Positions 1 through 56,498 of a stretch of 64,000 bases of DNA are shown here, piece after piece; positions within the stretch are counted from its first letter, which is position 1, and every line of letters starts with the position of its first letter. A program made the position numbers and the translations under genes. The notes below the pieces were generated by a model. The model did not search any database, was not told the origin of the DNA, and saw nothing but the letters and a program-made list of their open reading frames with translations. Origin of the DNA: Xestospongia bergquistia (Eukaryota; Porifera; Demospongiae; Haplosclerida; Petrosiidae); assembly GCA_963965975.1 (NCBI GenBank), contig OZ014414.1, forward strand, positions 8,613,230 through 8,677,229. Reading direction: 5' to 3'.

Positions 1-591
1 AGTCTTAATATAGAGAACACTTCATTGGACAGTAAGTGTGTATCGATATTATCAGAGATACTAAAAACTAATAAAACAATAAAGAGACTAGAGCTGGAGT
101 CCTCTTCACTTACTGGTGGTATCAAACAAGTCAGTGATAGTCTCTTTAATAATAAAACACTTGAACAGTTAGTGTTGTCTCATGTTACTGATATCACAGA
201 TGAAGATATAACTCACTTATCTACTATGTTATCAAGTAATACAACTTTAAAAGAACTAGAACTCTACAACTGTAACATCACTGATGATGGAGTCCGATAT
301 ATCTGTGAAGGACTTACTAAAAACCAAACATTGACTACGTTGGACATCGGACATAATCCTCAGATCACTTCAGTTAGTACCAGTACAATAGCAGATCTAA
401 TACAAACAACTACATCATTGACAACACTATATCTCTACGATACTTCACTGAACAATGATGATATCAAGACAATATGTACATCACTTAATAAAAATACTAC
501 AATAAGGAAACTATACTTATCAAGACAACATGAAGAGTATTGTAAGTTAGACAGTTATCAAGTTATTAAAGACAGGCTTGAGTTTTTGTAA
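1..591 (+). CDS. Receptor gene 1, terminal LRR exon (5' part outside window)
   Basis: Open from base 1 to a TAA at 589-591. It encodes about 196 residues of tandem LRRs of the ribonuclease-inhibitor type, with repeats of 25-29 residues in the pattern xxLxLxx...N/T.. followed by a helix. The window starts inside the first visible repeat (SLNIENTSLDSK), so the exon start and upstream domains are missing. The final residues KDRLEFL form a short capping strand. The exon matches the last exon of the other array members almost base for base, apart from beta-strand codons such as RLELESSSL and ELELYNCNI. A role as a ligand-recognition surface of a death-fold/LRR receptor is inferred from the complete paralogues downstream. 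Confidence 0.85.
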   Translation, partial: SLNIENTSLDSKCVSILSEILKTNKTIKRLELESSSLTGGIKQVSDSLFNNKTLEQLVLSHVTDITDEDITHLSTMLSSNTTLKELELYNCNITDDGVRYICEGLTKNQTLTTLDIGHNPQITSVSTSTIADLIQTTTSLTTLYLYDTSLNNDDIKTICTSLNKNTTIRKLYLSRQHEEYCKLDSYQVIKDRLEFL

Positions 592-6200: not shown

Positions 6201-8024
6201 TTTCCATATTTACTATACACTCCCTTAGTGTCAGTATAATATGATAGAGTTATGATTATGATAAGATCTATAAAATGTTTATATTAAGTGTTATCATATT
6301 AAACTATATACATGTACATGTTTAATATAAGTATCTTATATAGAGTCTCCAGTATTACATGATATATTAAAGGACTATGATGATAAAAAGACAAAGGATG
6401 AAGAGTCAGACAAAAGAGGTAAGACTTAGAGAATGTTATATTAGTTTATTAAAATTATAATATAATAAAATACACATACACTACAAGTATTGTTATTAAC
6501 CTTGCTGTACGTGGGCGCACTATAGTGGACAGTAGCAAAACTTGTGTACTTTTTAAGAATACTGCCAAAAGGAGCGTCAAACGAACAAAAAATTTTAAAA
6601 TCTGAAAAACATTTGAAAAAAGCACAGCTTTCAGCAAAGACTCGAGAATTCAATAAAAACCTTCTGCATACAGCTTATGACATTTTCCAACTTTTTTAAG
6701 TGAGAATTTTTGCCAAAATACTTCTTTGGAAAGTTATGACAGTTTTACTAACTTTTGGCAGTTATCTTTATCAATACATTGAGTGTGAACTAAAAATACA
6801 ACTATTATCAAATGAACTTTACACATTTCACTTACTATTAACAATAAAAGTATAGATGTTAAGAAACAATAAACAGGACATATCATATTCAAACAGGAAA
6901 TGTCTAAAGAATAATTCATTTCAGATTTTGTATTAGATCAATTGTCACATTAAAGCTACCAGACAATTCCCCTCAAAGCAAAGGGGTTGATCTCATCAGT
7001 TGATATATGAATACCAGAAATCTATTATATAGTAGTGTTCTGTTAGTATGATAGGATTGTTCCTAACAGTAAACCACGCCTCTTGCAATTCGTTGCCATA
7101 GTAACCGTAGTCAGTAAACAGTAATGGCTTCCTTTCTTTTTCAGTGTATTGTCTGTGTATTGTAGTGTGTTATAGTATATATTACTATGTGTGTACTATA
7201 CTATATACTAACTCTGTTTTATAACAGGAGATACTGGAAGTGTTCAGTGGAATGATGTTAACAATAATGTTATACTCACTAGTCCAAGTGTATTAGAAAG
7301 TGAAGATGTTATAAGTAAATTAATAAAAGAACAACAAACAGGAAAAGAATGGAGTATTCATCTCTACTCATCATCTCCTGAAAGTACTGCAGTTATTATA
7401 AACAATCTTAATAAGTGTACAGTGAGGAATCTTGATATACGGCGCACTTCATTGGACAGTAAGTGTGTATCGATATTATCAGAGATACTAAAAACTAATA
7501 AAACAATAAAGAGACTACAGCTGTTGTCCTCTTCACTTACTGGTGGTATCAAACAAGTCGGTGATAGTCTCTTTAATAATAAAACACTTGAACAGTTAGT
7601 GTTGTTTGATGTTACTGGTATCACAGATGAAGATATAACTCACTTATCTACTATGTTATCAAGTAATACAACTTTAAAAGAACTAAAATTCCTCTACTGT
7701 AACATCACTGATAATGGAGTCCGATATATCTGTGAAGGACTTACTAAAAACCAAACATTGACTTCGTTGAACATCGGAGGTAATCATCAGATCACTTCAG
7801 TTAGTACCAGTACAATAGCAGATCTAATACAAACAACTACATCATTGAAAGAACTACGTCTCTACAATACTTCACTGAACAATGATGATATCAAGACAAT
7901 ATGTACATCACTTAATAAAAATACTACAATAAGGAAACTATACTTATCACCACAACATGAAGAGTATTGTATGAAGTTAGACAGTTATCAAGTTATTAAA
8001 GATAGACTTCAGTATTGGATATAG
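3208..8024 (+). pseudogene. Receptor gene 2: DD / CARD-like / 220-aa module / coiled coil / LRR, with two frameshifts
   Basis: Exons, from splice signals and paralogues: 3208-3532 (death domain, KWYQLGIQLKL and MFELWLDTKPDATRR), 3621-3929 (CARD-like 1), 3977-4347 (linker and CARD-like 2), 4408-4506, 4562-5239 (220-residue module), 5298-5415, 5501-5563, 5655-5792, 5837-5938, 5981-6055, 6344-6418 (coiled coil and acidic linkers), 7228-8024 (LRRs). Two lesions break the frame. One base is missing near 4131 in CARD-like 2, after VRVS, and later codons (TNKALLMLLGAVRHAV) are read in another frame. A 4-bp tandem duplication (ACAT/ATAC) near 4868-4875 interrupts the module at ETHIQTY. Splice sites and the LRR exon remain intact, so the decay is recent or the LRR exon is kept uniform by gene conversion. 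The longer open frame from 3142 adds a non-conserved start; ATG 3208 is preferred because AAAGAAGCAATGGCTRCA recurs in genes 2, 6 and 9. Confidence 0.8.
6496..7100. other. Gene 2 intron with non-paralogous insertion, no gene seen
   Basis: Up to 6495 the intron matches genes 3 and 6 (TACACATACACTACAAGTATTG), then becomes unrelated, with GGGCGCACTATAGTGGACAG and purine-rich stretches that encode nothing recognisable. From about 6955 it returns to a degraded arm of the intronic MITE family (CCCCTCAAAGCAAAGGGGTTG). Confidence 0.5.
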
Positions 8025-15300: not shown

Positions 15301-18300
15301 GGACTGTCTCACTAGGTATTGCTTTCATACAATAGATATTAGTCTGATGTAGTCTGTGAATAGAAAGGATCTATATTTTATAACTTGTATCTGACATCCA
15401 AACAGTTTAAAATCATTTTAAATCAAGGAAGATTTAATTAATACATGTAACATTGACATACTCTGTATTATTTATTTGTTAGTATATTTTGTGAATTCAT
15501 TTTTAGTTATTGAGAAAGAGTCTATTGAAAAACAAAGAAAAATAGAGAAACAGCAAGAGATAACGACATCATTGACATTACAACTACGAGAGAGAGATGA
15601 ACAGATTGAGGAATTAAAACAGAGTTTAAAAGGTAACTATTATAATATGTACATGTAGATATTATAATATTGAGTGAGTGAATCTAAACAAGTGAGAATG
15701 TGGTCAATTTATATAACCTTAGTACTGTGGGTTTAGCTATAATTGTAGTAATGAGATTCATAGCTGACTGTATTGGATTAGTGATTGGTATATCAGGTCA
15801 TGATAAAACTCACATTCCCACACTTTGTAAGCTTGTCTTCTGATAAACCTTCCATACAGTGGGATACAAGTCTGTCTGTAATTAATTAATATTAATGTTA
15901 AATTAATTAAGTGCAATTATATAATATTAACACATCATGTGTCACTTGTCAATACTTGGACATTATTTGTGAATTTTTCATTTTTAGCTACTGAGGAAGA
16001 ATTGTTTTCAGTTGAAAAACAGAGAGAAATAGAAGAACAACAGAAGATAACATTGACATTACAACTAAGAGATAAAGACAAAGAAAATGAGACATTAAAA
16101 CAAAGTTTACAAGGTAATTAATATTAATATAACAAATAATATTTTAATGAGAAAAGATTATAAAAATGAAGTCAATAAATAAAGATAGTAATATTTGTTA
16201 ATAGTTGTCTAGTATACTAAATTTGTACATGTATATTTAAATTTTGTTTCTACTATTTGAGATCATGAATATAATTTATCATACTGAGTACATGTATAAT
16301 ATAATATATTGTAAATATTGTTATATATAGAAATGAAAGAAAAACAGTTTGAAGATTTGACATCACTTCCAGAAAGGAAAGAAGGTATTATTAATACAAT
16401 AGCTATCATTAACACTGTGACAGTAATGTTAAATTAATTAATATACAATTATATGAACAAACTGGAAAAAGATGACTATACAAATGTCATCTATTGTCAG
16501 ACAAAATGAAGGTATATTGTGTACAACTATTGTTTTATTTAATAACTATCTATTATATGATATATCTGATTAATAACTTAATGTTCCTTTATATAGAAAC
16601 AAGAGAAATGAAAGAAAAGACAATTGAAGATTTAACATCACTTGTGAAAACAAAGGAAGGTAAATTAATACAACATCAATCACAAGTCCAATGTTTTCAA
16701 TATTTTACATAATCAGGGTTAATATATAAAAATGAATTTCCATATTTACTATACACTCCCTTAGTGTCAGTATAATATGATAGAGTTATGATTATGATAA
16801 GATCTATAAAATGTTTATATTAAGTGTTACACTATATACATGTACATGTTTAATATAAGTATCTTATATAGAGTCTCCAGTATTACATGATATATTAAAG
16901 GACTATGATGATAATAAAGAGACAAAGGATGAAGAGTCAGACAAAAGAGGTAAGACTTAGAGAATGTTATATTAATTTATTATAATTATAATATAATAAA
17001 ATACACATACACTACAAGTATTGTTATTTATAATGTAACTTTATTGACATGAATAGCAACTAAAATGGACTAACTACTACATATATTGTTACTGACAAAT
17101 AATACACTTGACTGTGTCTTAGTTGACTCCACCTATAATGGACATAAGTACTAATAATGATGTCATTATAACTAATCTTGTTATGATAGAACCACATTGT
17201 ATACTATAATACCATATATAGTCTGATGAGGTCAGCCCCTTCGCTTAAAGAGGAAGGATCTGGTAGCATATTACAGTTAATGAAAAAGAATTTAATTTTA
17301 TGTAAACCTTATTATATGTTAATATTAAAGGAACATAATTAACTCAGCCCCTTTCTCTTAAGTTGGTTTGTGAGACTACAATGAATATTTTTACAGAGTT
17401 AAATCAACATGACTAAATGAAAGATATTGTAATACAATAAAACAAGAAAGGACAAAGAAGTCAATATTTCAGAATGAAACATCTAATGATGTTTGTTTGT
17501 AGATCCTGCACTTTTAGATCAAAGAAATTTCCACCCACACCCACTGTAAAAACAATGTGGTTTGTCTGATACAAGTTCAATAGTTGTATCAGGAATGTTA
17601 GTGAAAGAGACAACTGTACTATAGTATGGACTACCAAACCCTTCCTCTCTAAGCAAAGGGGCTGGTCATACCAGACTATCTGTTACTATAACTACAATAA
17701 ATTCATAAATTAAAATGATGTAATATATCAACATGACTTACTGTAGCTAGACCAACTAAAAGTAAATCAGTAATTTAAAAGGAACATCTCAGTAAATTCA
17801 GGATAATAAACATCGCCATCTATTTGCTCATTGCCATAGTAACCGTAGTCAGTAAACAGTAATGGCTTCCTTTCTTCTTCAGTGTATTGTCTGTGTATTG
17901 TAGTGTATTATAGTATATATTACTATGTGTGTACTATACTATATACTAACTCTGTTTTATAACAGGAGACACTGGAAGTGTTCAGTGGAGAGATGATAAC
18001 AATTATGTTAGTCTCACTAGTCCAAGTATATTACAAAGTGAAGATGTTATAAGTAAATTAATAAAAGAACAACAAACAAGAAAAGAATGGAGTATTCATC
18101 TCATCTCATCATCTCCTGAAAGTACTGCAGTTATTATAAACAATCTTAATAAGTGTACAGTGAGGAGTCTTAATATATACAACACTTCATTGGACAGTAA
18201 GTGTGTATCGATATTATCAGAGATACTAAAAACTAATAAAACAATAAAGACACTAGTGCTGTACTCCTCTTCACTTACCGGTGGTATCAAACAAGTCAGT

Positions 18301-18759
18301 GATAGTCTCTTTAATAATAAAACACTTGAACAGTTATGGTTGTTAGATGTTACTGATATCACAGATGAAGATATAACTCACTTATCTACTATGTTATTAA
18401 GTAATACAACTTTAAAAGAACTACGTCTCATCAACTGTAACATCACTGATAATGGAGTCCAATATATCTGTGAAGGACTTACTAAAAACCAAACATTGAC
18501 TAAGTTGAACATCGGACGTAATCATCAGATCACTTCAGTTAGTACCAGTACAATAGCAGATCTAATACAAACAACTACTTCACTAACAACACTATATCTC
18601 GACAATACTTCATTGAACAATGATGATATCAAGACAATATGTAAATCACTTAATAAAAATACTACAATAAGGAAACTACACTTATCAAGACAACATGAAG
18701 AGTATTGTATGACGTTAGACAGTTATCAACTTATTAAAGACAGACTTGTGTTTTGGTAA
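12334..18759 (+). CDS. Receptor gene 3: DD / CARD-like x2 / NLS / 220-aa module / long coiled coil / LRR (1127 aa)
   Basis: Sixteen exons join without a stop: 12334-12661 (death domain), 12712-13014 (CARD-like 1), 13076-13197, 13247-13382, 13442-13705 (CARD-like 2), 13761-13814, 13866-13910, 13955-14631 (220-residue module), 14690-14807, 14985-15080, 15507-15632, 15988-16113, 16331-16384, 16597-16659, 16872-16949, 17966-18759 (LRRs). The linker exon 13247-13382 carries RKRPLEDKEISDDDLKRKKK, a classical bipartite nuclear signal. The coiled coil is longer than in genes 5 and 6 (LTSQLRDRDKQIETLKQNLK-like heptads). Nearly every intron is phase 1. The architecture suggests a cytoplasmic or nuclear innate sensor that signals by death-fold assembly, but it lacks an NTPase. 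Family and domain order are read from sequence; function is inferred. Skipping of 16597-16659 would also keep the frame. Confidence 0.82.
16441..16720 (+). repeat. Duplicated exon fragment from the gene 2/5/6 lineage
   Basis: Bases 16455-16710 match gene 6 at about 42426-42675: the 3' part of a coiled-coil exon without its acceptor, then the complete next exon. This lies in the intron of a gene whose other coiled-coil exons belong to a different type. It ends CATAATCAGGGTT, where sequence jumps to a point 0.6 kb further along the paralogues. It is a recombination scar. Confidence 0.7.
17221..17676. mobile_element. Intronic MITE (GTCTGAT...AGCCCCTT family), gene 3 copy
   Basis: The element begins GTCTGATGAGGTCAGCCCC and ends GGGGCTGGTCATACCAGAC, arms of roughly 40 bp that are imperfect inverted repeats around AGCCCCTTTGCTTAGAGAGG. 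The interior repeats the motif AGCCCCTTTCTCTTAAG once more and encodes nothing. The same element sits in the same intron of genes 6 and 7, so it predates their duplication. Confidence 0.7.
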
Positions 18760-19123
18760 TAGTAAGTAGTTTGTTGTTTATTCTTAATTTGTCTTCTCAC
18801 TCACTTTTATTTTCTCTTTAAATTTCTTTTAACTTTCTTTTCTCTTCTTTTATAACAATTTATTTCTCTAACAAAAGTAATAGACAATAAAAATAGAGCA
18901 GTTTTGCTTGACACTTCTCTAACGTCGCACTTTTTTGTCTCTCTAACAGCTGGTTACTTGGCGCCTGTAATTATTATTTGTGGGCGGAGTATTATTTTTA
19001 ACCATTTGTGGCGAGAGAAGACCTCAAGCAATGAGAAATGTACTTGCATTACATTTTAGACCACCTAAAGAAGTCAACATGACCTGTCTTATATTCAGAG
19101 ATGAAAATATTCTAGTATCAAAA

Positions 19124-21552: not shown

Positions 21553-21756
21553 GAATTATCAGGAATATAGCACACACATATTGTTCATATTTATTAATTA
21601 ATTGTTAATAATTAATAATAATTAATCTTTTTACTTCTTATTTAATTTTATTATCATTACAAATCTAGTATTGTTATTGATGTTCTTTATATTAGCTTTG
21701 TTATTGAGTGTCTTTTGTGTTTTAATAAAAAACTCTATTAATTCAATTAATCATTA

Positions 21757-21960
21757 AGAGATTGAAGACTACAATTTAACTATAATAATGACATCAGTTC
21801 AGTTGAATAATGAAAATTGTCAACTGTTCAAGTAATCAACTGTTCAAGTCCAACAATACATATTTCTGAAGTAGAGACGTTTACTCACTTACATAATAAA
21901 TGGTGAGATGATATTAATAGACAACTCTATTATTTCTAATAATAATATGATCTAATCTAG
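21757..21960. repeat. Shared intergenic block (ATTGAAGACTACAATTTAAC)
   Basis: This block recurs at 45704 and 56866, in all three cases upstream (on the + strand) of a receptor tyrosine kinase fragment. It marks the common boundary between the receptor 3' flank and the kinase-derived DNA. Confidence 0.65.
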
Positions 21961-22000
21961 ATTTACAATACCAACAAAATGGATGAATAAATAAAAAATG

Positions 22001-24180
22001 GACAAATGAAAGGACTAAATGGAAGGAAAATGGATGAATGGAGAGTACATGGATTTATGGACAAATGGATGAGGGGAATGGACAGATAGAGTTGTAAATG
22101 GACAGATACTTGAGTTGATAGATGAATAAATGGTCTTACCTGATCGTACAGATGATGTTCTTGAAGGTCTAGAGTTTCTTCGTTGTAGGACCTCTTCTAA
22201 ATCTTCATCATCATCATCAGAATAATAACTATCTCTTTTATTAAAGTGAGGTTGCTCACTGGCATACCTCTTCCAACACATCAACATTAGTTTATATCTA
22301 CAAATAATAGAATTAACAATTATAATATTAGAACTAAGTCAGTCAGACTATCAATATATACACTTTACTATTCATTAATTTAATATATAGTCATAAATAT
22401 ACTGATATCATCTAATGATTAATACATTTATTAATATATATTCATTAATTTTATTGATCCATTCATTTGTCCATTGATCCTTTGAATTATTTAACTGTCC
22501 ATTCATTTGTCTCATATCTAAACATTCATCCATTAGTTTATTGATCCATCCATACATCCATTTGTCCATCCATTCAACATACAATCTTCCTGGACAGTTC
22601 TCTGGTTTATCTAATCTTCCTCCTCCTGTTACAAACTGGAGAACCTCTTGGTTTATTCTACCAGGATATGGTTGATTACCAAATGTCATAATCTCCCACA
22701 GAAGTACTCCATAAGACCTTTACAATAATGATATCTTTATAATAACTACTTCAACTTTCACTTACCAAATATCAGACTCAATTGTAAACTTCCCTTGAAG
22801 GAGTTATAAATACAGTCTCTCTCTCTCTCTCTCTCTCTCTAACTTGGTAGTAGTCTTGGCTATACAGATCTTTAGCAAGACCAAAGTCACCAATCTTTAC
22901 AACACGATCTGCTCCTTTACTTGACACAAGATAATTGCGTGCAGCAAGATCTCTGTGAATAAAATCAGTTTGCTCCTAGTATCGACAACCTTGAGCAACA
23001 TCTAATGCTATCTGAACAAGTTCTGCTAAAGTCAATAATGCAGGACCCTATAAAAGGAATGAATGGATGGATATATGGATGAATGGTATGTGTATGGATG
23101 AATGGATAGACAGTGAAATGGACATTAGGAAAAATAAATGGACAGATAGACTAGTAGATTGAAGAATAAATTGATAGATAGATAGTTTTAATAGAGTGTA
23201 TAATTAGATCAAGTGATTTTATTTATCATGTGACACTCACATGTTCTCGTTTAGCTTCTCTTAGGAATTTCAATAAGTCACCCCCTGGCATTAATTCCAT
23301 AATGATATAAATAGGATCATTATCAAGACACACCCCTAACACCTTAACAATGTTTTGATGATTGAAGTTACTGTAATTGAAAGAAATGAACTGAGAGAAC
23401 ATAAACAAAATATAATTACCTCATTAGAGCTCCTTCAGACAGGAACTTCCTGTTCCTCAGCTGTACTGCCTTTCCTCAGTGTCTTAACAGCCACAGGAGT
23501 GGGGCCTGTACCTTGACCTAGGATATCTACAGCTGTACATTGGTATACTTCACCAAATTCACCTCGATCAATAAACCTGAATGGGAGGAGAGAGAGAGAA
23601 AGATACAATTATAATATAATGAAATAAGACAGAACCTTGTTACCATATTAGGACATATTTTAATATGATAAAGTATTTATAAATGTTTATCTAAAATACA
23701 TGTATACATGTACTAAATGTATAGTATATTAAATAATTGTGAGTAAATATTACGTCTTTTGTTAATTCAGTGATACTTAAACTCCCAAAGACTCCAGCTG
23801 TATATTCTGTTCCATTGTACTCTATAGACTTGTAGGTCCATCGAATGTACAAGCTATAATTAGTGTAGGCGGAGAGATTAGTGAATAAGTTGAAGAGGAT
23901 AGCCAGATACTGAGGATGAGTTTTCACTACGTTGGTTGGTTGGGCTATAAATAGAATATAACAATAGATAGATGAAAAATAGATTAACATTATGTATATT
24001 GTCAGAGACATAATGTGCTTACATGTAAACCACACCCACATACCTGACCTTCCATAATGTATGCCTCAATCGTCTGCAAGACTCTATGATGTTCCTCTAG
24101 AGTTATCCCAATAAAGAAAAATGTTATCAGGTCCATAGAGAAGAGATTTGAGTCCAGTTACTAGATCAGGTACTACAGAT
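22001..24180 (-). pseudogene. ROS1/sevenless-like receptor tyrosine kinase, copy C (kinase and FN3 part)
   Basis: Exons read right to left on the - strand. About 24180-24050: fibronectin-III-like piece (PDLVTGLKSLLYGPDNIFLY) with a 1-bp frame break. 23950-23750: FN3-like exon. 23574-23420: kinase N-lobe, RGEFGEVYQC and TPVAVKTLRKG. 23370-23240: [32 protein letters not shown]. 22962-22845: [13 protein letters not shown] and [18 protein letters not shown]. 22795-22765 and 22715-22560: [24 protein letters not shown]. 22290-22139: end of the C-lobe and an acidic tail (YYSDDDDEDLEE). Two lesions show it is dead: two bases are lost after AEEQ in the N-lobe, and the WMAPEAL part of the activation segment is replaced by a (CT)n tract at 22805-22838. 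Catalytic HRD and DFG are intact. Confidence 0.8.
22815..22841 (+). repeat. (CT)n microsatellite replacing part of a kinase exon
   Basis: A pure TC run of about 24 bases lies where the paralogue at 48480-48533 encodes the WMAPEALLQ segment. Confidence 0.85.
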
Positions 24181-24492
24181 AAAGAACAGACATGTTTTAT
24201 AACTTGATATGATCACAATTTATAAATTTAATACATTAATTTTAAATGATCTTATAACTATTATTAACGTAACATTATAATAGTAGTAATATTACTTCAC
24301 CTCATCACATGTTAGCTCATTATTAGTATGTGGATGACTTTGAGGTCTACTATAATTTATTGTTTTAAAAGAATATTAGATTATTGATATTTTCTACATT
24401 GTACACCTGTTATAATGTTGTGTATTGTATTGTGTTATAGTATATATTACTATGTGTGTACTATATTATATACTAACTCTGTTTTATAACAG

Positions 24493-25286
24493 GACACACT
24501 GGAAGTGTTCAGTGGTATGATGATTACAATATTGTTGAACTAACTAGTCCAAGTGTATTACAAAGTGAAGATTTTATAAGTAAATTAATAAAAGAACAAC
24601 AAACAGGAAAAGAATGGAATATTAGTCTCTTCTCATCATCTCCTGAAAGTACTGCAGTTATTATAAACAATCTTAATAAGTGTACAGTGTGGAGGCTTTA
24701 TATAGTGGACACTTCATTGGACAGTAAGTGTGTATCGATATTATCAGAGATACTAAAAACTAATAAAACAATAAAGACACTACAGCTGGACTCCTCTTCA
24801 CTTACTAGTGGTATCAAACAAGTCAGTGATAGTCTCTTTAATAATAAAACACTTGAACAGTTATGGTTGTCTAATGTTACTGATATCACAGATGAAGATA
24901 TAACTTACTTATCTACTATGTTATCAAGTAATACAACTTTAAAAGAACTATGTCTCTACAACTGTAACATTACTGATAATGGAGTCCGATATATCTGTGA
25001 AGGACTTACTAAAAACCAAACATTGACTACATTGAACATCGGAGGTAATCATCAGATCACTTCAGTTAGTACCAGTACAATAGCAGATCTAATACAAACA
25101 ACTATATCATTGACAAGACTAGATCTCGACAATACTTCACTAAACAATGATGATATCAAGACAATATGTACATCACTTAATAAAAATACTACAATAAGGA
25201 AACTATACTTATCACCACAACATGAAGAGTATTGTATGAAGTTAGACAGTTATCAAGTTATTAAAGACAGACTTTTGTTCATGTAA
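24493..25286 (+). CDS. Unit 4: orphan LRR exon
   Basis: This complete LRR exon follows a normal acceptor (TTTTATAACAG) and about 70 bp of the conserved preceding intron. It encodes HTGSVQWYDDYNIVELTSP through six to seven LRRs to LLFM and a TAA. No upstream receptor exon exists; the DNA to the left is tyrosine kinase sequence. The frame is fully open and its beta-strand codons are a unique set (TLQLDSSSL, QLWLSNVTDI, ELCLYNCNI, RLDLDNTSL). Either it is a relic of a lost gene or it is a silent cassette that can donate sequence to other members. Expression would need a new upstream exon; alternatively gene 3 could splice to it as a second 3' exon, since the phase fits. Confidence 0.75.
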
Positions 25287-25654
25287 TAGTAAGTAGTTTG
25301 TTGTTTATTCTTAATTTGTCTTCTCGCTCACTTTTATTTTCTCTTTAAATTTCTTTTAACTTCATTTCCTCTTCTTATATTAACAATTTCTTTCTCTAAC
25401 AAAACTAGCAGACAATAAAAATAGAGCAGTTTTGCTTGACACTTACTTCTCTAACGTCGCACTTTTTTGTCTCTCTAACAGCTAGTCACTTGGCGCCTGT
25501 AATTATTATTTGTGGGCGGAGCACTATTTTTAACCCTTTGTGGCGAGAGAAGACCTCAAGCAATGAGAAATGTACTTGCATTATATTTTAGACCACCTAA
25601 AGAAGTCAACATGACCTGTCTTATATTCAGAGATGAAAATATTCTAGTATCAAA

Positions 25655-28020: not shown

Positions 28021-28434
28021 GAAGGGGTGTGGTCACTACGGATTAAAAACAGATGTATTATTGTCATAAATATACTAGTCCTGGGTCAATTACAATTGTA
28101 ATGAATTCATTATGTCCAAATATAACAACATATCATTAATATAGGAGGATGAAGTCCTTGAATATAAATTAATACAGCCAGTACTGAACAATAGAACATT
28201 ATAATATTGTAATATAATATAGTTACATGTTAAAATACTAGATACATAATATTGGAGGATAGATCAGATAACAATAGATGAATACAATACTAACTTGTAA
28301 TACTTAACAGTTCAAATTTAACTGCCATTCATGTTATGATTATTATTAAGATGGGTGTGGTCATTATATCTTATGTGATGAGCCCCACCCAAAAGGTCAC
28401 CAAATTCACTGGGCGTGTCACCTTACAAAGAGCA
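28021..28434. promoter_or_regulatory. 5' flank of receptor gene 5
   Basis: There is no gene here. The proximal part contains GGGTGTGGTC and TGAGCCCCACCCAAAAGGTC at about 28351-28400, a motif also found upstream of gene 3 (12281-12301). The two genes otherwise differ upstream. Confidence 0.45.
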
Positions 28435-31400
28435 ATGGCTACAAGAAACCTATCTTTTGAGGAGATTCTCGTAGAGAAACCTACTCTTGATGAATTATGT
28501 GAACATATTCGTATTGGTAGTAAATGGTATCAGTTGGGAATTCAGTTGAAACTGAACGTTAAGAAGTTAGAAGATATTCACAAGCTACCAGATGACTCCG
28601 CATACAAAACAACAAAAATGTTTGAGTTGTGGTTAGATACTAAACCTGATGCTACCAGAAGACAAGTAATAGATGCTTTGAGGAAGGAAGAAATCACCAT
28701 TGCCCTTGAGTATGAGCAAATATTGAGAAAATCCTGCAGTCTCCCTACTAGTAAGTACAAGAACCTTTTACATGTACATCTAGTTATAAATATTATATTA
28801 TTAGTTTATTAATAGTTATGTGTCATTTTTATTATAGGAATGGATATCCCAGGTACTGAACCAAGTGCTATTCTTCAATCCCATACACACATATTGCCTC
28901 AAACTCAAGAACCAGGTAACATACAAGACTTGATATAACATTCACTAACAGTTGTTTTAATGTATTACTTCATTTTAGATATTTCATATATTTTGAAAAA
29001 GAATCCCACTGAACATGAACTACTCAATCTATTAGCTGATATTAGAAACTTTTGGTATGAGATTGGGTTAAGTGTCAAAGTTCCTCACAGTATTTTGGAT
29101 GGTTTAAAACGTGGCCCAGAGAGCAATGCTGTCAAACTCTCTGAAGTCATTCATAGCTGGCTAACCACTACTGAGTCTACCTGGGAAACAGCAATTGATG
29201 CCATCAAGGGTCCTATTGTTAATAATATCAAGAAAGCTACTGAAATACAACAATATTTAACTAAAGGTAAGTTGATATAACATTTATTGATGCAGTCAGT
29301 GAATATTTATTTGTTCCTTAGTGATGGATGGTACTCTACAAAGTTTTATTGAAGAGATGTCTCAGTCTCTGATCAATCCTGTAAAAGTGTCCCAGCTCTT
29401 ATTTAGTGAAAGATGTATTAATGAAGAAGCGCTTGATAAAATGGAGACATTGAAAGGCTCTCCAGATGGGAAGAAGACAACTCTGTTATCTGCTATACAT
29501 ACAGCAATATCTTTGGATCATAAGAAGTTGAAAGTGTTAGCAACAGTACTGTCCAAGTTTGAAGAGACAAAAATGCTCTCCAAGAGAATTATCAGTGAAT
29601 ATGGTAAGAGGTCAATTAAATAATTTATAATTAATACATATTGTTAATAGGTCAAACATTTCCAGATGACCAGACAACAGTAGCTAATGTTCAAGAGGTA
29701 GTAATGACAAGTTATAGTAGTCATGAAGATCATGCCAGTGACATTTTATGTTGTCATTATGGCACTCTCTCTCAGTCTCTTCATTATCCTATTAGAGTAG
29801 CTCAATTACTCTGTGAAGAGAGAGTTATTTCACAGACAACTTTGTTTAATGTGAAAACTACTGCACAATCTCATTCAGAGAAAGAAGCAATTTTTCTTCT
29901 GCTAAAAGCTGTACGTCATGCTGTACATACCAACTACCATCACCTGGAGATGTTTGCTAGTGTATTGTTAAAATTTACTAGCACTGTACCATGTGCTAAT
30001 GCTATCTTAAAGGATTATGGTAAGTATAAAATGCTAGTTATAAATACAATTCTTAAATAAATATTCTTTGTAGAGAAAGTATTATCAGAAGATAATACCG
30101 TCGAAGTACAACATAGTGTTACTGCAGTTAGTAAAGGTAGTCATTATGTAATTTAGAATGTATTTCATTATATCAAACATTAGCTAACAAATAAATTAAA
30201 TTAATTAATTTAGATAAATATTAGATAATCCATCTTTGCTTGAGAACCAGTTAACATTAGGTCAAGGTTAATTGTGACATTTAACAGTTTCATTTTTAAT
30301 ATCTGTAGATGAAGCTTCATTGACAAGAAGTATTAAAATACCTCGCAAGTTAGACTCTATATTTGGGTCTATTAGAAGAAAGTTTGCAGTAGCCTTCAGT
30401 AAAATTCGAAAAGCTATTAAAGCAAGCCCTCCACCTCTAGAGGAACTGAAACTATTTCTTGAAGATGGTTATTCTCACCTTCAATCTGAAATAGATAACA
30501 CTAAATGTATTGATGAAGTCCTAACAGTTGTGAGAAATCATTGTACACTGATTAATATCAATTGTCTTGAGGGTATTGTGGAGCGTTTTGATGTTAAAGA
30601 AGCAGAGACGCATATACAAACATACAAAGATGATGTTCAAACATTTTGCAAGGAAACGAAAGCTTCTCTTTGTCTGGATGAAAATTTCAAAGTAACAAGA
30701 ACTCCTTCTCTTCTCCGATGTGAGACAGCCATCTTTGTCTTAGACTGGGATCCTACTGGCTACACATTACAAGATATACGAGATATTATTGCTGAATCAG
30801 TTGATGGAAATGTGGAGATTCGTGATTTAAGAGAGGGCAGGTCTATCATTGTCACTTGTTTTTTTCCACTCAGTCTAACCTCATCAATTATTGCCAGAGT
30901 TCAGGAGACACTCGAAGAAGTCAAGAAAAAAGGATTAATTCAACTTACAGTTGGATATTGTACCATTTATGATAAACATCAAAGAGACAAGGTAAGAGAT
31001 GAGTAGTATTAGACAACAGTTACTACATGTGTTGTTTATTGATATATAGGAGGTTAGAACTATTGTAGAAGAGAATACAAAGTTGAGAAGTCATTTGGAA
31101 CTAGAACAAACTATCCGGAAAAAGATGACTATACAAATGTCATCTATTGTCAGACAAAATGAAGGTATATTGTGTACAACTATTGTTTTATTTAATAACT
31201 ATCTATTATATGATATATCTGATTAATAACTTAATGTTCCTTTATATAGAAACAAGAGAAATGAAAGAAAAAACAATTGAAGATTTAACATCACTTGTGA
31301 AAACAAAGGAAGGTAAATTAATACAACATCAATGACAAGTCCAATGTTGTCAGTATTTTACATAATCAGGGTTTCATTTAGCTTAGGGGGGGGGGCATTT

Positions 31401-33347
31401 GCCTCCCCCCCCTTGGAAATTAGGTTAGCCATTTTTTCAAGGGGTAATTGGATGTAATGAATACAGGACTGAAACTCAACACAAGTAATATACAATATTA
31501 TATAATCTTAGGCTAAACACAAGGAGAATATACAGTTTTTAACCTAAACAGCTATTCTTCTACTCTTTCTGTTCATGTCATTTGAAAACCACAAATGGTA
31601 TGAAAATGTGCCAGAAGCAATCTCAGAGGGTCTAAAATTCAAACATTTTTTGGGGGCATGCCTCCAGACTCCCCTAGAGGGCACGCTGTTGCGCGCAGTC
31701 CTTTAGACCCCTAAATTTTCTCTAAGTATTATTTTGACCCCCCCTGGTCCATTTTTCTAAATGAAACCCTGAATGCAATCTATGTGTCCAATGTTGTCAA
31801 TATTTTACATAATATGTTAGTGATCAATTTTTTTCTCATTTTATATAAAGCTATTGAGAAGAATATACTGTCAGTGTCTACTGAGAGACAGAAAGAACTA
31901 GAGACACTACAAGAAATAATAACGTCATTGACTTTACAAGTAAGAGAGAGAGACCAACAGATTGAGGAGTTAAAACAGAGCTTGAAAGGTAACTGATATT
32001 AGTGACTTCTCATTATATGACATTGTTACTAGATCTAGCATTCATACCAAAGGTTCGTAAACCAGTAACTGATCAAGGACTTGAGGAAACACAAACAAAA
32101 TCCATCCAAGAAGAGTCCACACATGAAACTACAGGTAATAATATAATATTGTTAATATTATATATGTCTTAATTGTGACTACTAGAGTCTTCACTAATAT
32201 TAGAGTTAAAAGATCAGTTAAAAGGTTCAGCTGATAATAAAGACGAAACCACTCCTCCAAGTAAGTTTATATGATAATATTCTATCTCTTACAATCAATA
32301 ATATTAATAATTATTTAATAAGAGTAAAGGTAACAATTTAAAAAGCATCTCATTAAATTCCACTGACGAGATTATAGAGACACTAACGAGATTATAAGCC
32401 CCTCCTCCTATTAGCTCGTTGCCATAGTAACCATTATCAGTAAACAGTAATGGCTTCCTTTCTTCTTCAGTTTGTTGTCTGTATATTGTAGTGTGTTATA
32501 GTATATATTACTATGTGTGTACTATATTATATACTAACTCTGTTTTATAACAGGAGACACTGGAAGTGTTCAGTGGTATGATGATAACAATATTGTTATA
32601 CTCACTAGTCCAAGTGTATTACAAAGTGAAGATGTTATAAGTAAATTAATAAAAGAACAACAAACAGGAAAAGAATGGAATATTACTCTCTACTCATCAT
32701 CTCCTGAAAGTACTGCAGTTATTATAAACAATCTTAATAAGTGTACAGTGAGGTGTCTTAATATATACAACACTTCATTGGACAGTAAGTGTGTATCGAT
32801 ATTATCAGAGATACTAAAAACTAATAAAACAATAAAGAGACTAGAGCTGTTCTCCTCTTCACTTACTGGTGGTATCAAACAAGTCAGTGATAGTCTCTTT
32901 AATAATAAAACACTTGAACAGTTAGAGTTGTTTAATGTTACTGATATCACAGATGAAGATATAACTCACTTATCTACTATGTTATCAAGTAATACAACTT
33001 TAAAAGAACTATATCTCTCCAACTGTAACATCACTGATAATGGAGTACGATATATCTGTGAAGGACTTACTAAAAACCGAACATTGACTATGTTGAACAT
33101 CGGACATAATCACCAGATCACTTCAGTTAGTACCAGTACAATAGCAGATCTAATACAAACAACTAGATCATTGACAAGACTATATCTCTACAAGACTTCA
33201 CTAAACAATGATGATATCAAGACAATATGTACATCACTTAATAAAAATACTACAATAAGGAAACTACGCTTATCAAGACAACATGAAGAGTATTGTATGA
33301 AGTTAGACAGTTATCAAGTTATTAAAGACAGACTTTTATTCGTGTAA
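28435..33347 (+). CDS. Receptor gene 5: DD / DD / CARD-like x2 / 220-aa module / coiled coil / LRR (1121 aa)
   Basis: Exons 28435-28750 (death domain 1), 28838-28915, 28979-29266 (death domain 2: NFWYEIGLSVKVPHSILDGL, TWETAIDAIKGP), 29322-29603 (CARD-like 1: SLINPVKVSQLLFSERCINE), 29651-30019 (linker and CARD-like 2), 30074-30136, 30309-30991 (220-residue module), 31050-31164, 31250-31312, 31851-31988, 32033-32134, 32186-32260 (coiled coil, linkers), 32554-33347 (LRRs) sum to 3366 bases with no internal stop. This member alone has both death-domain types in tandem. The short NLS-like exon of genes 3 and 7 is absent. A MITE (31367-31773) lies in a coiled-coil intron. Death-fold domains at the N-terminus with LRRs at the C-terminus is the layout of NLR-type sensors, but no P-loop NTPase is present. 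Confidence 0.85.
31367..31773. mobile_element. MITE with CAGGGTTTCATTTAG ends
   Basis: The left end CAGGGTTTCATTTAGC and right end CTAAATGAAACCCTG are inverted repeats. Next to them lie G- and C-runs (GGGGGGGGGGCATTTGCCTC), typical of one group of hAT-related MITEs. A 27-bp direct repeat (CCAATGTTGTCA-TATTTTACATAAT) lies on both sides (about 31340-31366 and 31785-31811), longer than a normal target duplication. The empty site is seen in gene 6 at 42653-42680. Confidence 0.75.
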
Positions 33348-33364
33348 TAGTAAGTAGTTTGTTG

Positions 33365-42800: not shown

Positions 42801-45296
42801 ACAAGTAAGAGAGAGAGACCAACAGATTGAGGAGTTAAAACAGAGCTTGAAAGGTAACTGGTATTTGTGACTTCTCATTATATGATATTGTTACTAGATC
42901 TAGCATTTATACCAAAGGTTCGTAAACCAGTAACTGATCAAGGACTTGAGGAAACACATACAAAATCCATCCAAGAAGAGTCCACACATGAAACTACAGG
43001 TAATAATATAATATTGTTAATAATATATATGTCTTAATTGTGACTACTAGAGTCTCCACTAATATTAGAGTTAAAAGATCAGTTAAAAGGTTCAGCTGAT
43101 AATAAAGATGAAACTACTCCTCCAAGTAAGTTTATATGATAATATTCTATCTCTTACAATCAATAATGTTAATAATTATTAAATTTATAAACCACAAATT
43201 ATTATAGTGTAAATTATATTCATAATTCTCAAACCACAATAATTAAATTCATAATATATAAAAAATGAATTTCCATATTTACTATACACTCCCTTAGTGT
43301 CAGTATAATATGATAGAGTTATGATTATGATAAGATCTATAAAATGTTTATATTAAGTGTTATCATATTACACTATATACATGTACATGTTTAATATAAG
43401 TATCTTATATAGAGTCTCCAGTATTACATGATATATTAAAGGACTATGATGATAATAAAGAGACAAAGGATGAAGAGTCAGACAAAAGAGGTAAGACTTA
43501 GAGAATGTTATATTAGTTTATTAAAATTATAATATAATAAAATACACATACACTACAAGTATTGTTATTTATAATGTAACTTTATTGACATGAATAACAA
43601 CTAAATGGACTAACTACTACATATATTGTTACTGACAAATATTAATACACTTGACTGTGTCTTAGTTGACTCCACCTATAATGGACATAAGTAATAATGA
43701 TGTCATTATAACTAATCTTGTTATGATAGAACCACATTGTATATTATAATACCATATATAGTCTGATGAGGTCAGCCCCTTCGCTTATAGAGGAAGGATC
43801 TGGTAGCATATTACAGTTGATGAAAAAGAATTTAATTTTATGTAAACCTTATTATATGTTAATATAAAAGGAACATAATTAACTCAGCCCCTTTCTCTTA
43901 AGTTGGTTTGTGAGACTACAATGAATATTTTTACAGAGTTAAATCAACATGACTAAATGAGAGATATTGTAATACAATAAAACAAGAAAGGACAAAGAAG
44001 TCAATATTTCATAATGAAACATCTAATGATGTTTGTTTGTAGATCCTGCACTTTTAGATCAAAGAAATTTCCACCCACACCCACTGTAAAAACAATGTGG
44101 TTTGTCTGATAAAAGTTCAATAGTTATATCAGGAATGTTAGTGAAAGAGACAACTGTACTATATAGTATGGACTATCAAACCCTTCCTCTCTAAGCAAAG
44201 GGGCTGGCCATACCAGACTATCTGTTACTATAACTGCAATAAATTCACAAATTAAAATGATGTAATATATCAACATGACTTACTGTAGCTAGACCAACTA
44301 GTAATTTAAAAGGAACAGCTCAGTAAATTCAGGATAATAAGCCACGCCTCCTATTTGCTCGTTGTCATAGTAACCGTAGTCAGTAAACAGTAATGGCTTC
44401 CTTTTTTCTTCAGTGTATTGTCTGTGTATTGTAGTGTGTTATAGTATATATTACTATGTGTGTACTATACTATATACTAACTCTGTTTTATAACAGGAGA
44501 CGCTGGAAGTGTTCAGTGGTATGATGATGACAATAGTGTTATACTCACTAGTCCAAGTGTATTAGAAAGTGAAGACGTTATAAGTAAATTAATAAAAGAA
44601 CAACAAACAGGAAAAGAATGGAGTATTGATCTCTTCTCATCATCTCCTGAAAGTACTGCAGTTATTATAAACAATCTTAATAAGTGTACAGTGAGGAGTC
44701 TTGAGATATATAACACTTCATTGGACAGTAAGTGTGTATCGATATTATCAGAGATACTAAAAACTAATAAAACAATAAAGAGACTACGGCTGTCATCCTC
44801 TTCACTTACTGGTGGTATCAAACAAGTCAGTGATAGTCTCTTTAATAATAAAACACTTGAACAGTTAGTGTTGTCTAATGTTACTGATATCACAGATGAA
44901 GATATAACTCACTTATCTACTATGTTATCAAGTAATACAACTTTAAAAGAACTATATCTCTACAACTGTAACATCACTGATAATGGAGTCCGATATATCT
45001 GTGAAGGACTTACTAAAAACCAAACATTGACTACGTTGGACATCAGAGGTAATCATAAGATCACTTCAGTTAGTACCAGTACAATAGTAGATCTAATACG
45101 AACAACTACATCATTGACAAGACTATATCTCTACAATACTTCATTGAACAATGATGATATCAAGACAATATGTACATCACTTAATAAAAATACTACAATA
45201 AGGAAACTACACTTATCAAGACAACATGAAGAGTATTGTAAGAAGTTAAACAGTTATCAAGTTATTAAAGACAGACTTAAATTCTCCATATTCTAA
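39883..45296 (+). CDS. Receptor gene 6: DD / CARD-like x2 / 220-aa module / coiled coil / LRR (1107 aa)
   Basis: Exons 39883-40207 (death domain), 40296-40604 (CARD-like 1), 40656-40792, 40844-40979 (charged linker with PKKEKL), 41027-41326 (CARD-like 2: RVAQLLCEERVISQTTLFNV, LLKAVRHAV), 41381-41443, 41621-42300 (module), 42359-42476, 42562-42624, 42716-42853, 42898-42999, 43051-43125, 43413-43490 (coiled coil and acidic linkers), 44497-45296 (LRRs). The total is 3324 bases, open throughout. The module (41621-42300) has an N-terminal helical half (FGSIRRKFAVAFSKIRKAI) and a C-terminal half with LDWDPTGYTLQDI and SIIITCFFPLSL. The LRR exon ends LKFSIF, a capping strand unlike any other copy. 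The long intron 43491-44496 holds a MITE. Of all members this is the cleanest gene model. Confidence 0.88.
43761..44218. mobile_element. Intronic MITE (AGCCCCTT family), gene 6 copy
   Basis: It has the same ends as the gene 3 copy (GTCTGATGAGG... and ...CATACCAGAC) and occupies the same position in the intron before the LRR exon. The two copies are close to identical. Confidence 0.7.
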
Positions 45297-47104: not shown

Positions 47105-48640
<1,536 letters not shown>

Positions 48641-53500: not shown

Positions 53501-56498
53501 AATTTCATAACACATTAGTAATCAAAGTAGTATTAAGGTTACTTTTTACACATGCAACCCACATAACCATGTATTGGTTAAATTAACTAATCAATTTTTA
53601 CAGTGTTGATATTAATAAAATAAATTAATAATTAAGTGGGAGATTAAAGGAAACACTAGAAATAAAGAGACTAAATCTATTAGAGTAATTAGAGCTAACA
53701 TTATGTTACTCATTAATTACACAATAATATGAAAGACTAGTAGGACAGTATCAGACTATATACTTTAACACTTAATATTTGGGGTTTATGAGGTAAAGAT
53801 CATTATAAATATCTTAATATAGGACTGTCTCACTAAGTACTGCTTTCATACAATAGACATTAGTCTGATATAGTCTGTAAGTAGAAAGGGTCTATATTTT
53901 ATAACTTGTTTCTGACATCCAAACAGTTTAAAATCATTTTAAATCAAGGAAGATTTAATTAATAAATGTAACATTAACATACTCTGTATTATTTATTTGT
54001 TAGTATATTTTGTGAATTCATTTTTAGTTACTGAGAAAGAGAAACAAAGAGAAAGTAAGAAATTACAAGACATAACCACATCATTGACATTACAACTACG
54101 AGAGAGAGATGAACAGATTGAGGAATTAAAACAGAGTTTAAAAGGTAACTATTATAATATGTACATGTAGATATTATAATATTGAGTGAGTGAATCTAAA
54201 CAAGTGAGAATACGGTCAGTTTATATACTTGTGGGTTTAATAATTGTAGTAATGAGATTCATAGCTGACTGTATTGGATTCAGGCATATCAGTGGAGCTG
54301 ATTAAAAGAACATATTAACTGATATGAAGTGATGTGGTTTACTTTATAAGGATGTATTGTATAGAATTGTCAACTAGACCTCTAACTGTAAAAACAGCAG
54401 ATTTAAATTCTAATGACTGATGCAATGGTTTATTACCTTAAATTGAGCAATAAACTTATTCTAAATCTAGTAGAGCTGTATCTGGAATGTCAAAGCAGTG
54501 ATGGTCCTCCAAATACATTGTCACTATTGTTTATCACTTGTCATTGTATATTACTTGATGTAGCGTTAATCTCAAAGACTCATAAACCACTAACTGATCA
54601 AGGACTTGAAGAGACCCAAACAAAGTTTATTCAAGAAGATAAGTCCACACCATCTATCATTGAAACTACAGGTAATAATGTAAATTATATTTTATAATTA
54701 TTTAATATAGTCTCCACTATCAGAGTTAAAAGATAAGAGTTCAGCTTATGATATCAAAGAGTCAGATGATAAACAGCCAGATATAAAAGGTATATCATAT
54801 TATAAACATATAATTCTCAGTATCTATAATAACAAGACTACATGTGACATTATTGGTAAAGCTCCTTGTATTATCAATATCATGACTATTGTCTTGTGAC
54901 ATACTTTGTACGGTTGTCTTGGTGATAGTTATAGATTGTCATATATAGTATGGTGAGGTTAGCCCCTTTGCTTAGAGAGAAAGGATCTGGTAGTTGTTAT
55001 GGTTGATGAAAACTAATTTAATTTTATGGTTAATTTTATTATGTGTTAATATCATAAAAGCAACACAGCCCCTTTCTCTTGAGTTGGTTTGTGAGACTAC
55101 AACATAATGTTTTTATTGAGTTAAATCAACATGACTAAATGAAAGATATTGTAACACAATAGAACAAGAAAGGACAAAGAAGTCAATATCTCATAATGAA
55201 ACATCTAATGATGCTTGTTTGTAGATCCTGCACTTTATTAGATCAAAGCAGTTTTCAGCCACACCCACTATTAAAACAATGGGGTTTTCAGGCACAAGTT
55301 CAATAGACTGTGGTTGTACTAGGAATGTTAGTGAAAGAGACAATTGTACTATAGAATGGACTACCAAACCCTTCCTCTCTAAGCAAAGGGGCTGGCCATA
55401 CCAGACTATCTATTGCTATAACTGCAATAAATTCACAAATTAAATGATTTATTATATCAACATGACTTACTGTAGCTAGATCTTAAAACCAACTAAGAGT
55501 AAAGGTAACAATTTAAAAAGCATCTCAGTAAATTCCACTGACCAGATAAGCCCCGCCTCTATTAGCTCGTTGCCATAGTAACCATATTCAGTAAACAGTA
55601 ATGGCTTCCTTTCTTCTTCAGTTTGTTGTCTGTGTATTGTAGTGTGTTATAGTATATATTACTATGTGTGTACTATACTATATACTAACTCTGTTTTATA
55701 ACAGGAGACACTGGAAGTGTTCAGTGGAGAGATGTTATCAATAGTGTTGACCTCATTAGTCCAAGTGTATTAGAAAGTGAAGATGTTATAAGTAAATTAA
55801 TAAAAGAACAACAAACAGGAAAAGAATGGTGGATTAGTCTCAGGTCATCATCTCCTAAAAGTACTGCAGTTATTATAAACAATCTTAATAAGTGTACAGT
55901 GAGGAGTCTTGATATATACAACACTTCATTGGACAGTAAGTGTGTATCGATATTATCAGAGATACTAAAAACTAATAAAACAATAAAGAGACTAGTGCTG
56001 TACTCCTCTTCACTTACTGGTGGTATCAAACAAGTCAGTGATAGTCTCTTTAATAATAAAACACTTGAAGAGTTAGTGCTGTCTAGTGTTTCTGGTATCA
56101 CAGATGAAGATATAACTCACTTATCTACTATGTTATCAAGTAATACAACTTTAAAAGAACTATATCTCTACAACTGTAACATCACTGATAATGGAGTCCG
56201 ATATATCTGTGAAGGACTTACTAAAAACCAAATATTGACTAAGTTGGACATCGGAGATAATCGTCAGATCACTTCAGTTAGTACCAGTACAATAGCAGAT
56301 CTAATACAAACAACTACATCATTGACAACACTAGATCTCAACAATACTTCACTAAACAATGATGATATCAAGACAATATGTACATCACTTAATAAAAATA
56401 CTACAATAAGGAAACTATGGTTATCAAGACAACATGAAAAGTATTGTATGAAGTTAGACAGTTATCGAGTTATTAAAGACAGACTTAAGTTTTGGTAA
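50590..56498 (+). CDS. Receptor gene 7: DD2 / CARD-like x2 / 220-aa module / long coiled coil / LRR (about 1062 aa)
   Basis: Exons 50590-50626 (MAAKELPQTQHL), 50688-50990 (second-type death domain: HLWPEIGFSLNVSDNVLDGL), 51046-51327 (CARD-like 1), 51381-51520, 51568-51700 (basic RKQLRKDKEISDDN, NLS-like), 51747-52046 (CARD-like 2: HDEGVISNEVLASI), 52095-52190, 52242-52915 (module), 52974-53082, 53260-53355, 54028-54144, 54564-54671 (coiled coil, linkers), 55705-56498 (LRRs). The expected exon at 54711-54790 has lost two bases at its acceptor and would give VSTIRVKR and a stop. Because its neighbours are phase 1, skipping it restores an open frame of 3189 bases. The start exon replaces the usual death domain 1. 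The coiled-coil introns match gene 3, not genes 5 and 6. Confidence 0.78.
53362..53605. mobile_element. CACTGTAAAAA MITE, precise insertion in gene 7 intron
   Basis: This 244-bp element has about 40-bp inverted ends: CACTGTAAAAAATGATTGG... and ...CTAATCAATTTTTACAGTG. The paralogous intron of gene 3 at 15081-15087 reads GGTAATTGATATT; here GGTAATT precedes and TTGATATT follows the element. The insertion is therefore exact and duplicated TT. No coding capacity. Confidence 0.88.
54948..55406. mobile_element. Intronic MITE (AGCCCCTT family), gene 7 copy
   Basis: The more diverged member of the family (left end GTATGGTGAGGTTAGCCCC, right end CATACCAGAC), at the same intron position as in genes 3 and 6. 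Confidence 0.65.

Follow-up and report, generated by a model that had tools for sequence, protein, structure and literature searches.

A terminal leucine-rich-repeat exon family with hypervariable strand codons on a near-uniform scaffold

The leucine-rich-repeat (LRR) exon at 24,493–25,286 belongs to a large family of terminal exons in which amino-acid differences pile up at 41 codons, mostly in or beside predicted beta-strands, while silent sites in those same codons hardly differ. We consider it probable that this pattern reflects exon-limited gene conversion together with strong diversifying selection on the concave binding face of the encoded domain, in Death-domain genes without a detected NACHT domain. 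If so, scaffold and specificity of a receptor repertoire evolve under separate rules inside one exon, and the animal that offers this clean natural example is probably not a bilaterian.

The exon family and its variable codons

The stretch of DNA analysed (64,000 nucleotides, C4:8,613,230-8,677,229; hereafter the window) is part of a genome of 146 Mb in 21 contigs and holds seven LRR terminal exons, the first of which is cut by the window edge (Table 1). Six of them were compared and share 92–95% nucleotide identity. An acceptor (...TTTTATAACAG) directly precedes the exon start at 24,493, the stop codon ends at 25,286, and an AATAAA-type signal lies 128 bases past the stop. Genome-wide there are at least 145 LRR exon matches (143 of 462 first-look candidates scored), a few of which are two pieces of one exon, and most of the closest matches listed are situated at 8.43–9.63 Mb on C4.

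The exon set comprised 73 of the 145 listed matches, i.e., all those with at least 79% identity to the query used, bar nine (among them two partial exons and one probable duplicate). Complete exons stand in the genome, and 71 of the 73 are open, without internal stop. Exon counts were based on 70 distinct copies, after removal of L024 and L031, which have an internal stop, and of L034, whose sequence equals that of L035. The diversity profile and flank-correlation tests used all 33 copies with flanks, these three included; the flank/exon linkage test left out L034, and the heterozygosity test left out all three. Five more stretches with flanks were added later, and the flank of L076 was taken from L008. 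L024 and L031 are situated ca. 11 kb apart, carry one internal TGA each and differ by 5 nucleotides, and are perhaps a duplicated pseudogene. L034 equals L035 with flanks included, and C4:8777135-8789374 and 8851124-8863363 repeat two LRR exons at the same spacing and with identical search scores, at an offset of 73,989; this repeat reflects either a segmental duplication of very recent date or a duplication in the assembly.

Table 1. Positions of the features in the window (codon numbers refer to the 269-codon alignment).
Feature	Position	Strand	Remark
LRR exon, cut by window start	1..591	+	Whole in locus L038
LRR exon	7228..8024	+	
LRR exon	17966..18759	+	
LRR exon under study	24493..25286	+	Split codon (2 bases), 263 codons, stop codon
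LRR exon	32554..33347	+	
LRR exon	44497..45296	+	
LRR exon	55705..56498	+	
Homogenised cassette (approximate)	24377..25476	+	Ca. 100 bp of intronic sequence with branch-point-like TACTAAC and acceptor, exon, ca. 190 bp of 3′ sequence
TACTAACTCTGTTTTATAACAG	24471..24492	+	Branch-point-like (TACTAAC) and acceptor; identical at the six LRR exons starting inside the window
AATAAAAATAGAGCAG	25414..25429	+	Polyadenylation-signal-like (AATAAA-type), 3′ part of cassette; 6 window copies, one mismatched
Variable codons 12, 14, 16, 17, 19, 21, 23, 24	24510..24548	+	N-terminal strands
Variable strand codons 50, 52	24624..24632	+	2.8 and 2.7 bits
Variable strand codons 72, 73, 75, 77, 78	24690..24710	+	
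Variable strand codons 101, 103, 105	24777..24791	+	Repeat 2 of the earlier note
Variable codons 130, 132, 133, 136	24864..24884	+	
Variable strand codons 157, 159, 161	24945..24959	+	Repeat 4 of the earlier note
Variable codons 185, 187, 190, 192	25029..25052	+	
Variable codons 214, 216, 218, 219	25116..25133	+	
Variable codons 242, 244, 247, 250, 254, 255	25200..25241	+	244: repeat 7 of the earlier note
Variable cap codons 267, 269	25275..25283	+	
Death domain ORF	28294..28809	+	PF00531, E 1.5e-7; upstream of the LRR exon at 32554
Three ORFs	28939..30057	+	One 29% identical to the Death domain ORF, two mutually related (36% identity)
Large N-terminal exon	30278..31003	+	No assigned domain; relatives at 13915, 41590 and 52235
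ORF preceding LRR exon	31715..31993	+	Weak, below-cut-off matches to coiled-coil-type families

Across the 70 copies, 41 of 269 codons have an entropy above 1.0 bit, and 30 exceed 1.5 bits. The structure predicted for the LRR domain (pLDDT 94.6, pTM 0.91) best matched a ribonuclease inhibitor (4peq, TM 0.80) in a fold search that also returned NLRP3 and NOD2, so that the domain as modelled is of the ribonuclease-inhibitor type. Along a strand, variable and invariant residues alternate (W47 0.0, N48 0.8, I49 0.0, S50 2.8, L51 0.0 and F52 2.7 bits). Grouped by DSSP class of the model, the 51 strand residues have an average entropy of 1.19 bits, the 99 loop residues 0.41 and the 113 helix residues 0.22, and 36 of the 41 variable codons are in a strand or at most one residue before or three residues after it, a zone covering 93 of 263 positions overall (hypergeometric P 5e-14). 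While the 41-codon set was defined on the same data, the DSSP-class comparison escapes that circularity, as does the comparison of the window with the rest of the family: codons with four to six residues among the seven window exons have a mean entropy of 2.3 to 3.4 bits in the other 63 copies, and codons invariant in the window 0.20. Within strands, residue combinations are somewhat fewer than after shuffling (59 vs. 66.7 in a five-codon strand; elsewhere 52 vs. 59.6), and the independence of variable codons within strands is therefore incomplete.

An earlier note, made from the seven window exons, had placed the changes at the x positions of each strand, with a spread of variability over the helices as the result that would speak against it; the entropies above bear out the first and run counter to the second. 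Its residue series for repeats 2, 4 and 7 and for the cap, with the codons quoted, were reproduced, and the helix stretch it gave as identical, DSKCVSILSEILKTNKTIK, recurs in all seven window exons and in 54 of the 70 family copies. The backbone it called frozen is so in a relative sense, since copies with flanks differ by 2.5% of nucleotides outside the 41 codons, and since only 36 of the 69 codons that vary in protein among the window exons belong to the 41-codon set, the other 33 being outside it. Ten further codons show silent change only.

Amino-acid change, silent change and the uniform cassette

The first two positions of the 41 codons have a heterozygosity of 0.405, about ten times the 0.042 of the intron in the cassette. 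At C/T third bases it is 0.032 in the same 41 codons vs. 0.028 elsewhere in the exon, and the claim that neighbouring silent sites barely move thus holds. Where two copies share both the residue and the first two bases, third bases differ in 5.0% of cases in variable codons vs. 3.2% elsewhere; this count, like the flank-correlation test below, used the 30 codons above 1.5 bits. Values of pN/pS are 2.06 for strand codons, 0.83 for helices and 0.92 for loops, and the heterozygosity figures are preferred because path averaging inflates pS in codons with multiple hits. At codons 50, 101 and 216, five to ten residues alternate over a third base that is invariant or almost so.

All four bases occur at positions 1 and 2 of variable codons, and the third base changes mainly with the residue. 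Transitions make up 39% of pairwise differences at these two positions vs. 57–64% at the other site classes, a low share that is expected if radical changes are retained. The site pattern thereby points to selection on residues, and not to a local mutation hot spot. With silent change at 0.03 vs. replacement change at 0.40 in the same codons, the separation is sharp enough for conversion and selection to be measured separately.

The uniformity extends somewhat beyond the exon and then ends. Pairwise diversity per 100 bp amounts to 0.04–0.12 inside a cassette running from ca. –100 to ca. +190, and to 0.22–0.53 outside (33 aligned copies), with mean flank divergences of 0.37 and 0.45. Upstream and downstream flank divergences correlate with each other (Spearman rho 0.51, 482 pairs) and not with that of the exon lying between them (rho 0.02). 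Linkage behaves likewise, r2 being about 0.10 from flank to flank across the exon, 0.16–0.26 within a flank and 0.04–0.06 from flank to exon, where 1/(n-1) is 0.032. The exon thus evolves decoupled from both its flanks.

Inside the exon, r2 is 0.016–0.021 beyond 10 bp, for silent sites (20 sites) as well, with 1/(n-1) at 0.014. Because exon sites are this close to linkage equilibrium, a single tree is invalid, and tree-free comparisons were used throughout. In simulations with conversion only (one run each), r2 was 0.054 with 200-bp tracts, 0.027 with 60-bp tracts and 0.018 with 20-bp tracts, and the 0.016 observed within 10–30 bp is below the value for 200-bp tracts, which weighs against conversion as the only source of exchange. 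Since the simulation needs tracts of ca. 20–60 bp, shorter than a stretch of ca. 104 bp described below, some of the lack of linkage may stem from ordinary allelic recombination within a large population. Repeat-to-repeat exchange within the exon was rejected, as every LRR site retains its own third base, and exchange therefore runs in register between copies rather than between repeats.

Several other elements were observed among the LRR genes. At 33348-34178 of the window, the conserved 3′ signal of the cassette is found 832 bases past the stop vs. 122–137 elsewhere, and ca. 700 bases seem to have been inserted there. Shortly after the fifth LRR exon, a 469-codon open frame on the minus strand (34233-35642) matches FLYWCH and MULE transposase families. 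Similar ORFs are present at 19180-19590 and 25637-26017, each a few hundred bases behind an LRR exon and with what we take to be a PHD-like cysteine pattern; these are perhaps retroelement remnants. The minus strand also carries fragments that are, judging by motif, presumably kinase-like, at 22579-22719, 48267-48407 and 58966-59106, the latter two being 96–98% identical to the first.

Exchange between copies and competing explanations

In the reading that we favor, the LRR exon would encode the part that contacts ligand in a large family of germline receptors, whose genes have a Death domain and no detected NACHT. Ectopic gene conversion confined to the ca. 1.1 kb cassette (acceptor, exon and 3′ end) would copy it between genes, at least along C4, erasing neutral divergence in the scaffold and reshuffling strand codons. 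Diversifying selection on the residues facing out of the beta-sheet, which would point to the ligand, would then retain several residues at each of ca. 40 codons, so that nearly every gene would present a different concave face on the same scaffold. Such selection would presumably serve recognition (of microbes or non-self), in genes that would be expressed and spliced as drawn here. The earlier note had likewise paired diversifying selection with a backbone kept uniform by gene conversion, and this proposal gains from the tenfold excess over the intron, from the decoupling of exon and flanks, and from replacements that are tract-like and shared between copies.

As to the latter, among 64 copies, from which six duplicate partners had been removed, 78 of 448 105-nt windows have a neighbour that differs by no more than 1 nt, compared with a mean of 39.3 and a maximum of 51 in 60 shuffles. 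Moreover, L058 and L059 differ by 4.4% in the upstream flank, 0.5% in the exon and 0.75% downstream, and L072 and L076 by 3.3%, 0.6% and 2.5%, respectively, which fits exon copying between genes. In a further case, L062 (C4:8794956-8795759) and L030 (C4:8872336-8873139) agree at all 2248 aligned flank bases and throughout the remaining exon, and have 17 nucleotide differences within codons 72–106 (ca. 104 bp), where 10 codons are changed, none of them silently. Over codons 56–125, L030 equals L055 except for four codons, two of which are silent. Against the favored reading, a genome search in which 40 of 140 candidates were scored gave no complete donor for the L062 tract, the best other match having 93% identity over 120 bp, nor was a full donor found for that of L030 (best 95%; 40 of 144 candidates scored).

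This stretch leaves an outside chance that strand codons are renewed in events, i.e., that rewriting of a short patch exchanges most of its strand codons together, the variants being drawn from a pool that lies mostly outside the genome copy concerned. Such a pool might be supplied by the other haplotype, by the population or by a templated process. If this were true, L062/L030 would be one rewriting event caught inside a duplication identical elsewhere where examined, and the germline of an invertebrate would contain a set of binding faces that is actively dealt anew.

Recent duplicates bear on the competing readings. Set-wide, divergence is 0.298 in variable codons vs. 0.025 in the others, an excess of about 12-fold that would predict ca. 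34 variable-codon changes in the three duplicate pairs W17950/L029, L058/L059 and L072/L076. Only 2 were seen in 369 variable-codon nucleotides (0, 1 and 1) vs. 16 in 2052 others (9, 3 and 4), and W17950/L029 combines a flank divergence of ca. 1% with zero variable-codon change. Adding the stop-bearing L024/L031, with 2 of its 5 changes in variable codons, gives 4 in 492 vs. 19 in 2736.

These counts weigh against a recent burst in which one LRR exon was amplified and its copies then changed in place through positively selected point mutations, with little conversion, since in-place change predicts a large excess in recent duplicates. A burst would account for the star-like spectrum of silent variable sites (23 of 32 are singletons, Tajima's D –2.2). 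Tajima's D is also negative in the cassette intron (–1.9) and in the backbone (–2.4) and positive in variable codons (+3.1) and the upstream flank (+1.2), a set of values that counts in favor of conversion with diversifying selection as well. A burst would also suit the pairwise differences at the 41 codons, which cluster tightly around a median of 0.66. Nevertheless, biased repair, purifying selection or expansion, rather than simple conversion, may each underlie the negative values; the flanks of the same genes, and their large N-terminal exons with 45–94% amino-acid identity in the four pairs compared, are far more diverged than the exon; and at variable codons the majority of pairs are near-identical or else as different as random ones, intermediates such as L062/L030 (0.17) and L054/L036 (0.27) being few. 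A burst is hence very unlikely as the main cause.

Slightly less likely still is a mutagenic process (DGR-like, deaminase or templated patch repair) that rewrites strand codons in place with selection secondary, a possibility that the earlier note had raised as a mechanism directing change to these codons. The absence of a variable-codon excess in recent duplicates disfavors it, and so do the silent third bases, which hardly rise above background in the very codons that would be targeted. Such a process could explain why variable codons are nearly independent of each other, why exon divergence is independent of the flanks, and why the one L062/L030 stretch has ten replaced codons, no silent one and, among the candidates scored, no complete donor. 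It could likewise explain the eight pairs with close flanks on both sides (sharing members and thus not independent; L034/L035 and the stop-bearing L024/L031 left out), of which one is identical at variable codons, the difference in the other seven being comparable to that of random pairs. However, the use of all four bases, with a third base that follows the residue, is unlike adenine-specific mutagenesis, and the base pattern, with no adenine rule and with replacement changes at position 3, sets the exons apart from targets of diversity-generating retroelements. Residue sets are furthermore specific to each site and common to proteins taken to be of another genome (see below).

Just as improbable is a scaffold DNA frozen by purifying selection (on the protein plus codon or RNA constraint), with variable codons that are merely unconstrained surface. 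The x positions of LRR strands are exposed, so tolerance of change there is plausible, and the negative Tajima's D of the backbone agrees with constraint. Yet unconstrained codons should vary equally at silent and replacement sites, and they do not; helix residues, many of which are on the outer domain surface of LRRs, hardly vary; the ca. 100 bp of intronic sequence and the 3′ flank are close to the exon background in their uniformity; and the choice of residues is strongly site-specific. Finally, old balanced alleles were rejected as the sole cause, silent third bases in variable codons being hardly raised, but they could contribute with a signal hidden by very high recombination.

Gene context, related proteins and known systems

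Relatives of the Death domain ORF (3145-3591, 12286-12666, 39865-40263 and 63775-63999) are located upstream of other LRR exons, so that these genes would carry a Death domain upstream as in Death-fold receptors, joined to the LRR exon by predicted splicing. The ORFs in 28939..30057 gave no Pfam match above the cut-off, and the ORF at 31715..31993 is possibly a coiled-coil, going by its weak matches. For the large N-terminal exon, the predicted structure is of low confidence (pLDDT 63) and a fold search gave no usable match; a protein-database search with it returned 184 relatives. Because no family N-terminal exon was found between the exon at 24493..25286 and the previous LRR exon (window 18760-24470; tblastn, seven N-terminal queries), the former may be an orphan exon.

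No NACHT match lies within the C4 array at 8.43–9.63 Mb among the 95 listed genome-wide (103 of 156 candidates scored), the nearest listed being at C4:8,331,556. A NACHT domain near the window genes was accordingly dropped as a candidate, and the union of NACHT and LRR in one gene that marks a bona fide NLR did not occur among the listed NACHT matches. On contigs C2, C10 and C11, NACHT matches form clusters separate from the LRR array, and many of them lie in open reading frames 800–1100 residues long. Homologues of the LRR exon protein are listed with Pfam families PF27087 and PF27089.

For comparison, 171 database proteins were fetched (the best 120 of 553 plus the best 120 of 529 matches). 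At the variable codons, 37 of these match host exons, and 73 are of other origin with backbone residues of their own; these 73 are taken as coming from at least one other genome, to judge by their sequences. They were chosen by 142M, 151T and a backbone distance below 0.12. Residues unused in that choice also set them apart, i.e., 150A (in 70), 124E (59), 248E (55), 235T (54) and 121C (52), and one such protein searched against the host genome reached 85% identity at best. Nevertheless, 35 of the 41 variable sites exceed 1.0 bit in this set as well, site entropies correlate with those of the host exons at 0.90, and residue frequencies of host and other set have a cosine of 0.87 at the same site vs. 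0.21 at different sites. Backbones would thus be specific to their source and binding-site alphabets shared. Over residues 73–269, the backbone difference is 0.045 within the main host cluster, 0.061 within the other set and 0.085 between them, so that, assuming the other set to be one genome, likeness within a genome exceeds that between genomes, as in a concerted multigene family. On two contigs, 25 of 35 listed proteins match host exons at the variable codons, 1 nearly does and 9 do not; the proteins of these contigs may be alternate-haplotype copies.

The pattern of variable codons directly predicts binding residues, and the way in which animals without adaptive immunity keep many specificities becomes a testable question. 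Lamprey variable lymphocyte receptors are LRR receptors in which most variable residues are located on the concave beta-sheet, and their genes are completed somatically through a process resembling gene conversion; in the present family, in contrast, complete exons stand in the genome. Sponge NLR repertoires were reportedly described by Yuen et al. in 2014. According to a further study, these repertoires include expanded Death, CARD, NACHT and LRR gene sets (PMC12909245), and the host genome, with at least 95 NACHT matches, resembles them, but none of the listed matches is near the window genes. In a term search of that study, the words "selection" and "conversion" did not occur.

In plant hvNLRs, entropy peaks in the LRRs, in RPP8 at strand x positions, and exchange between RPP8 paralogues enlarges and reshuffles the variant pool (PMC8226289, PMC6771003, as far as excerpted). 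The LRR entropy peaks described here are alike, and 30 positions surpass the hvNLR rule of at least ten above 1.5 bits, albeit among paralogues of one genome, the plant definition referring to alleles. Unlike in the plant genes, homogenisation is limited to one terminal exon cassette, and no NACHT was found near the array among the listed matches. In excerpts on Podospora anserina, the NWD/HET genes have recognition repeats that evolve in concert across genes, and diversifying selection acts on four interaction-surface residues in each repeat (PMC1805685). The sponge exons share this conjunction, but the fungal WD repeats are exchanged within and between genes, and exchange here is in register between copies. 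The zebrafish NLR-B30.2 genes, as excerpted, form a large family mostly on one chromosome arm, with gene conversion that differs by exon and positive selection in hypervariable parts of the recognition exon (PMC4852459). A large clustered family, exon-specific conversion and a selected recognition exon are likenesses, although the zebrafish genes have a NACHT domain and show the signal in B30.2 instead of the LRRs.

Among the titles and abstract openings of the open-access papers listed by the searches, no description of such a pattern for sponge LRR genes was found. Plant NLRs, fungal NWD genes and zebrafish NLR-B30.2 genes offer precedents for each of three elements, namely hypervariable strand residues, concerted evolution and diversifying selection. 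What is new is their occurrence in a combination of a Death domain, no NACHT found, a one-exon cassette with measurable boundaries, and near linkage equilibrium.
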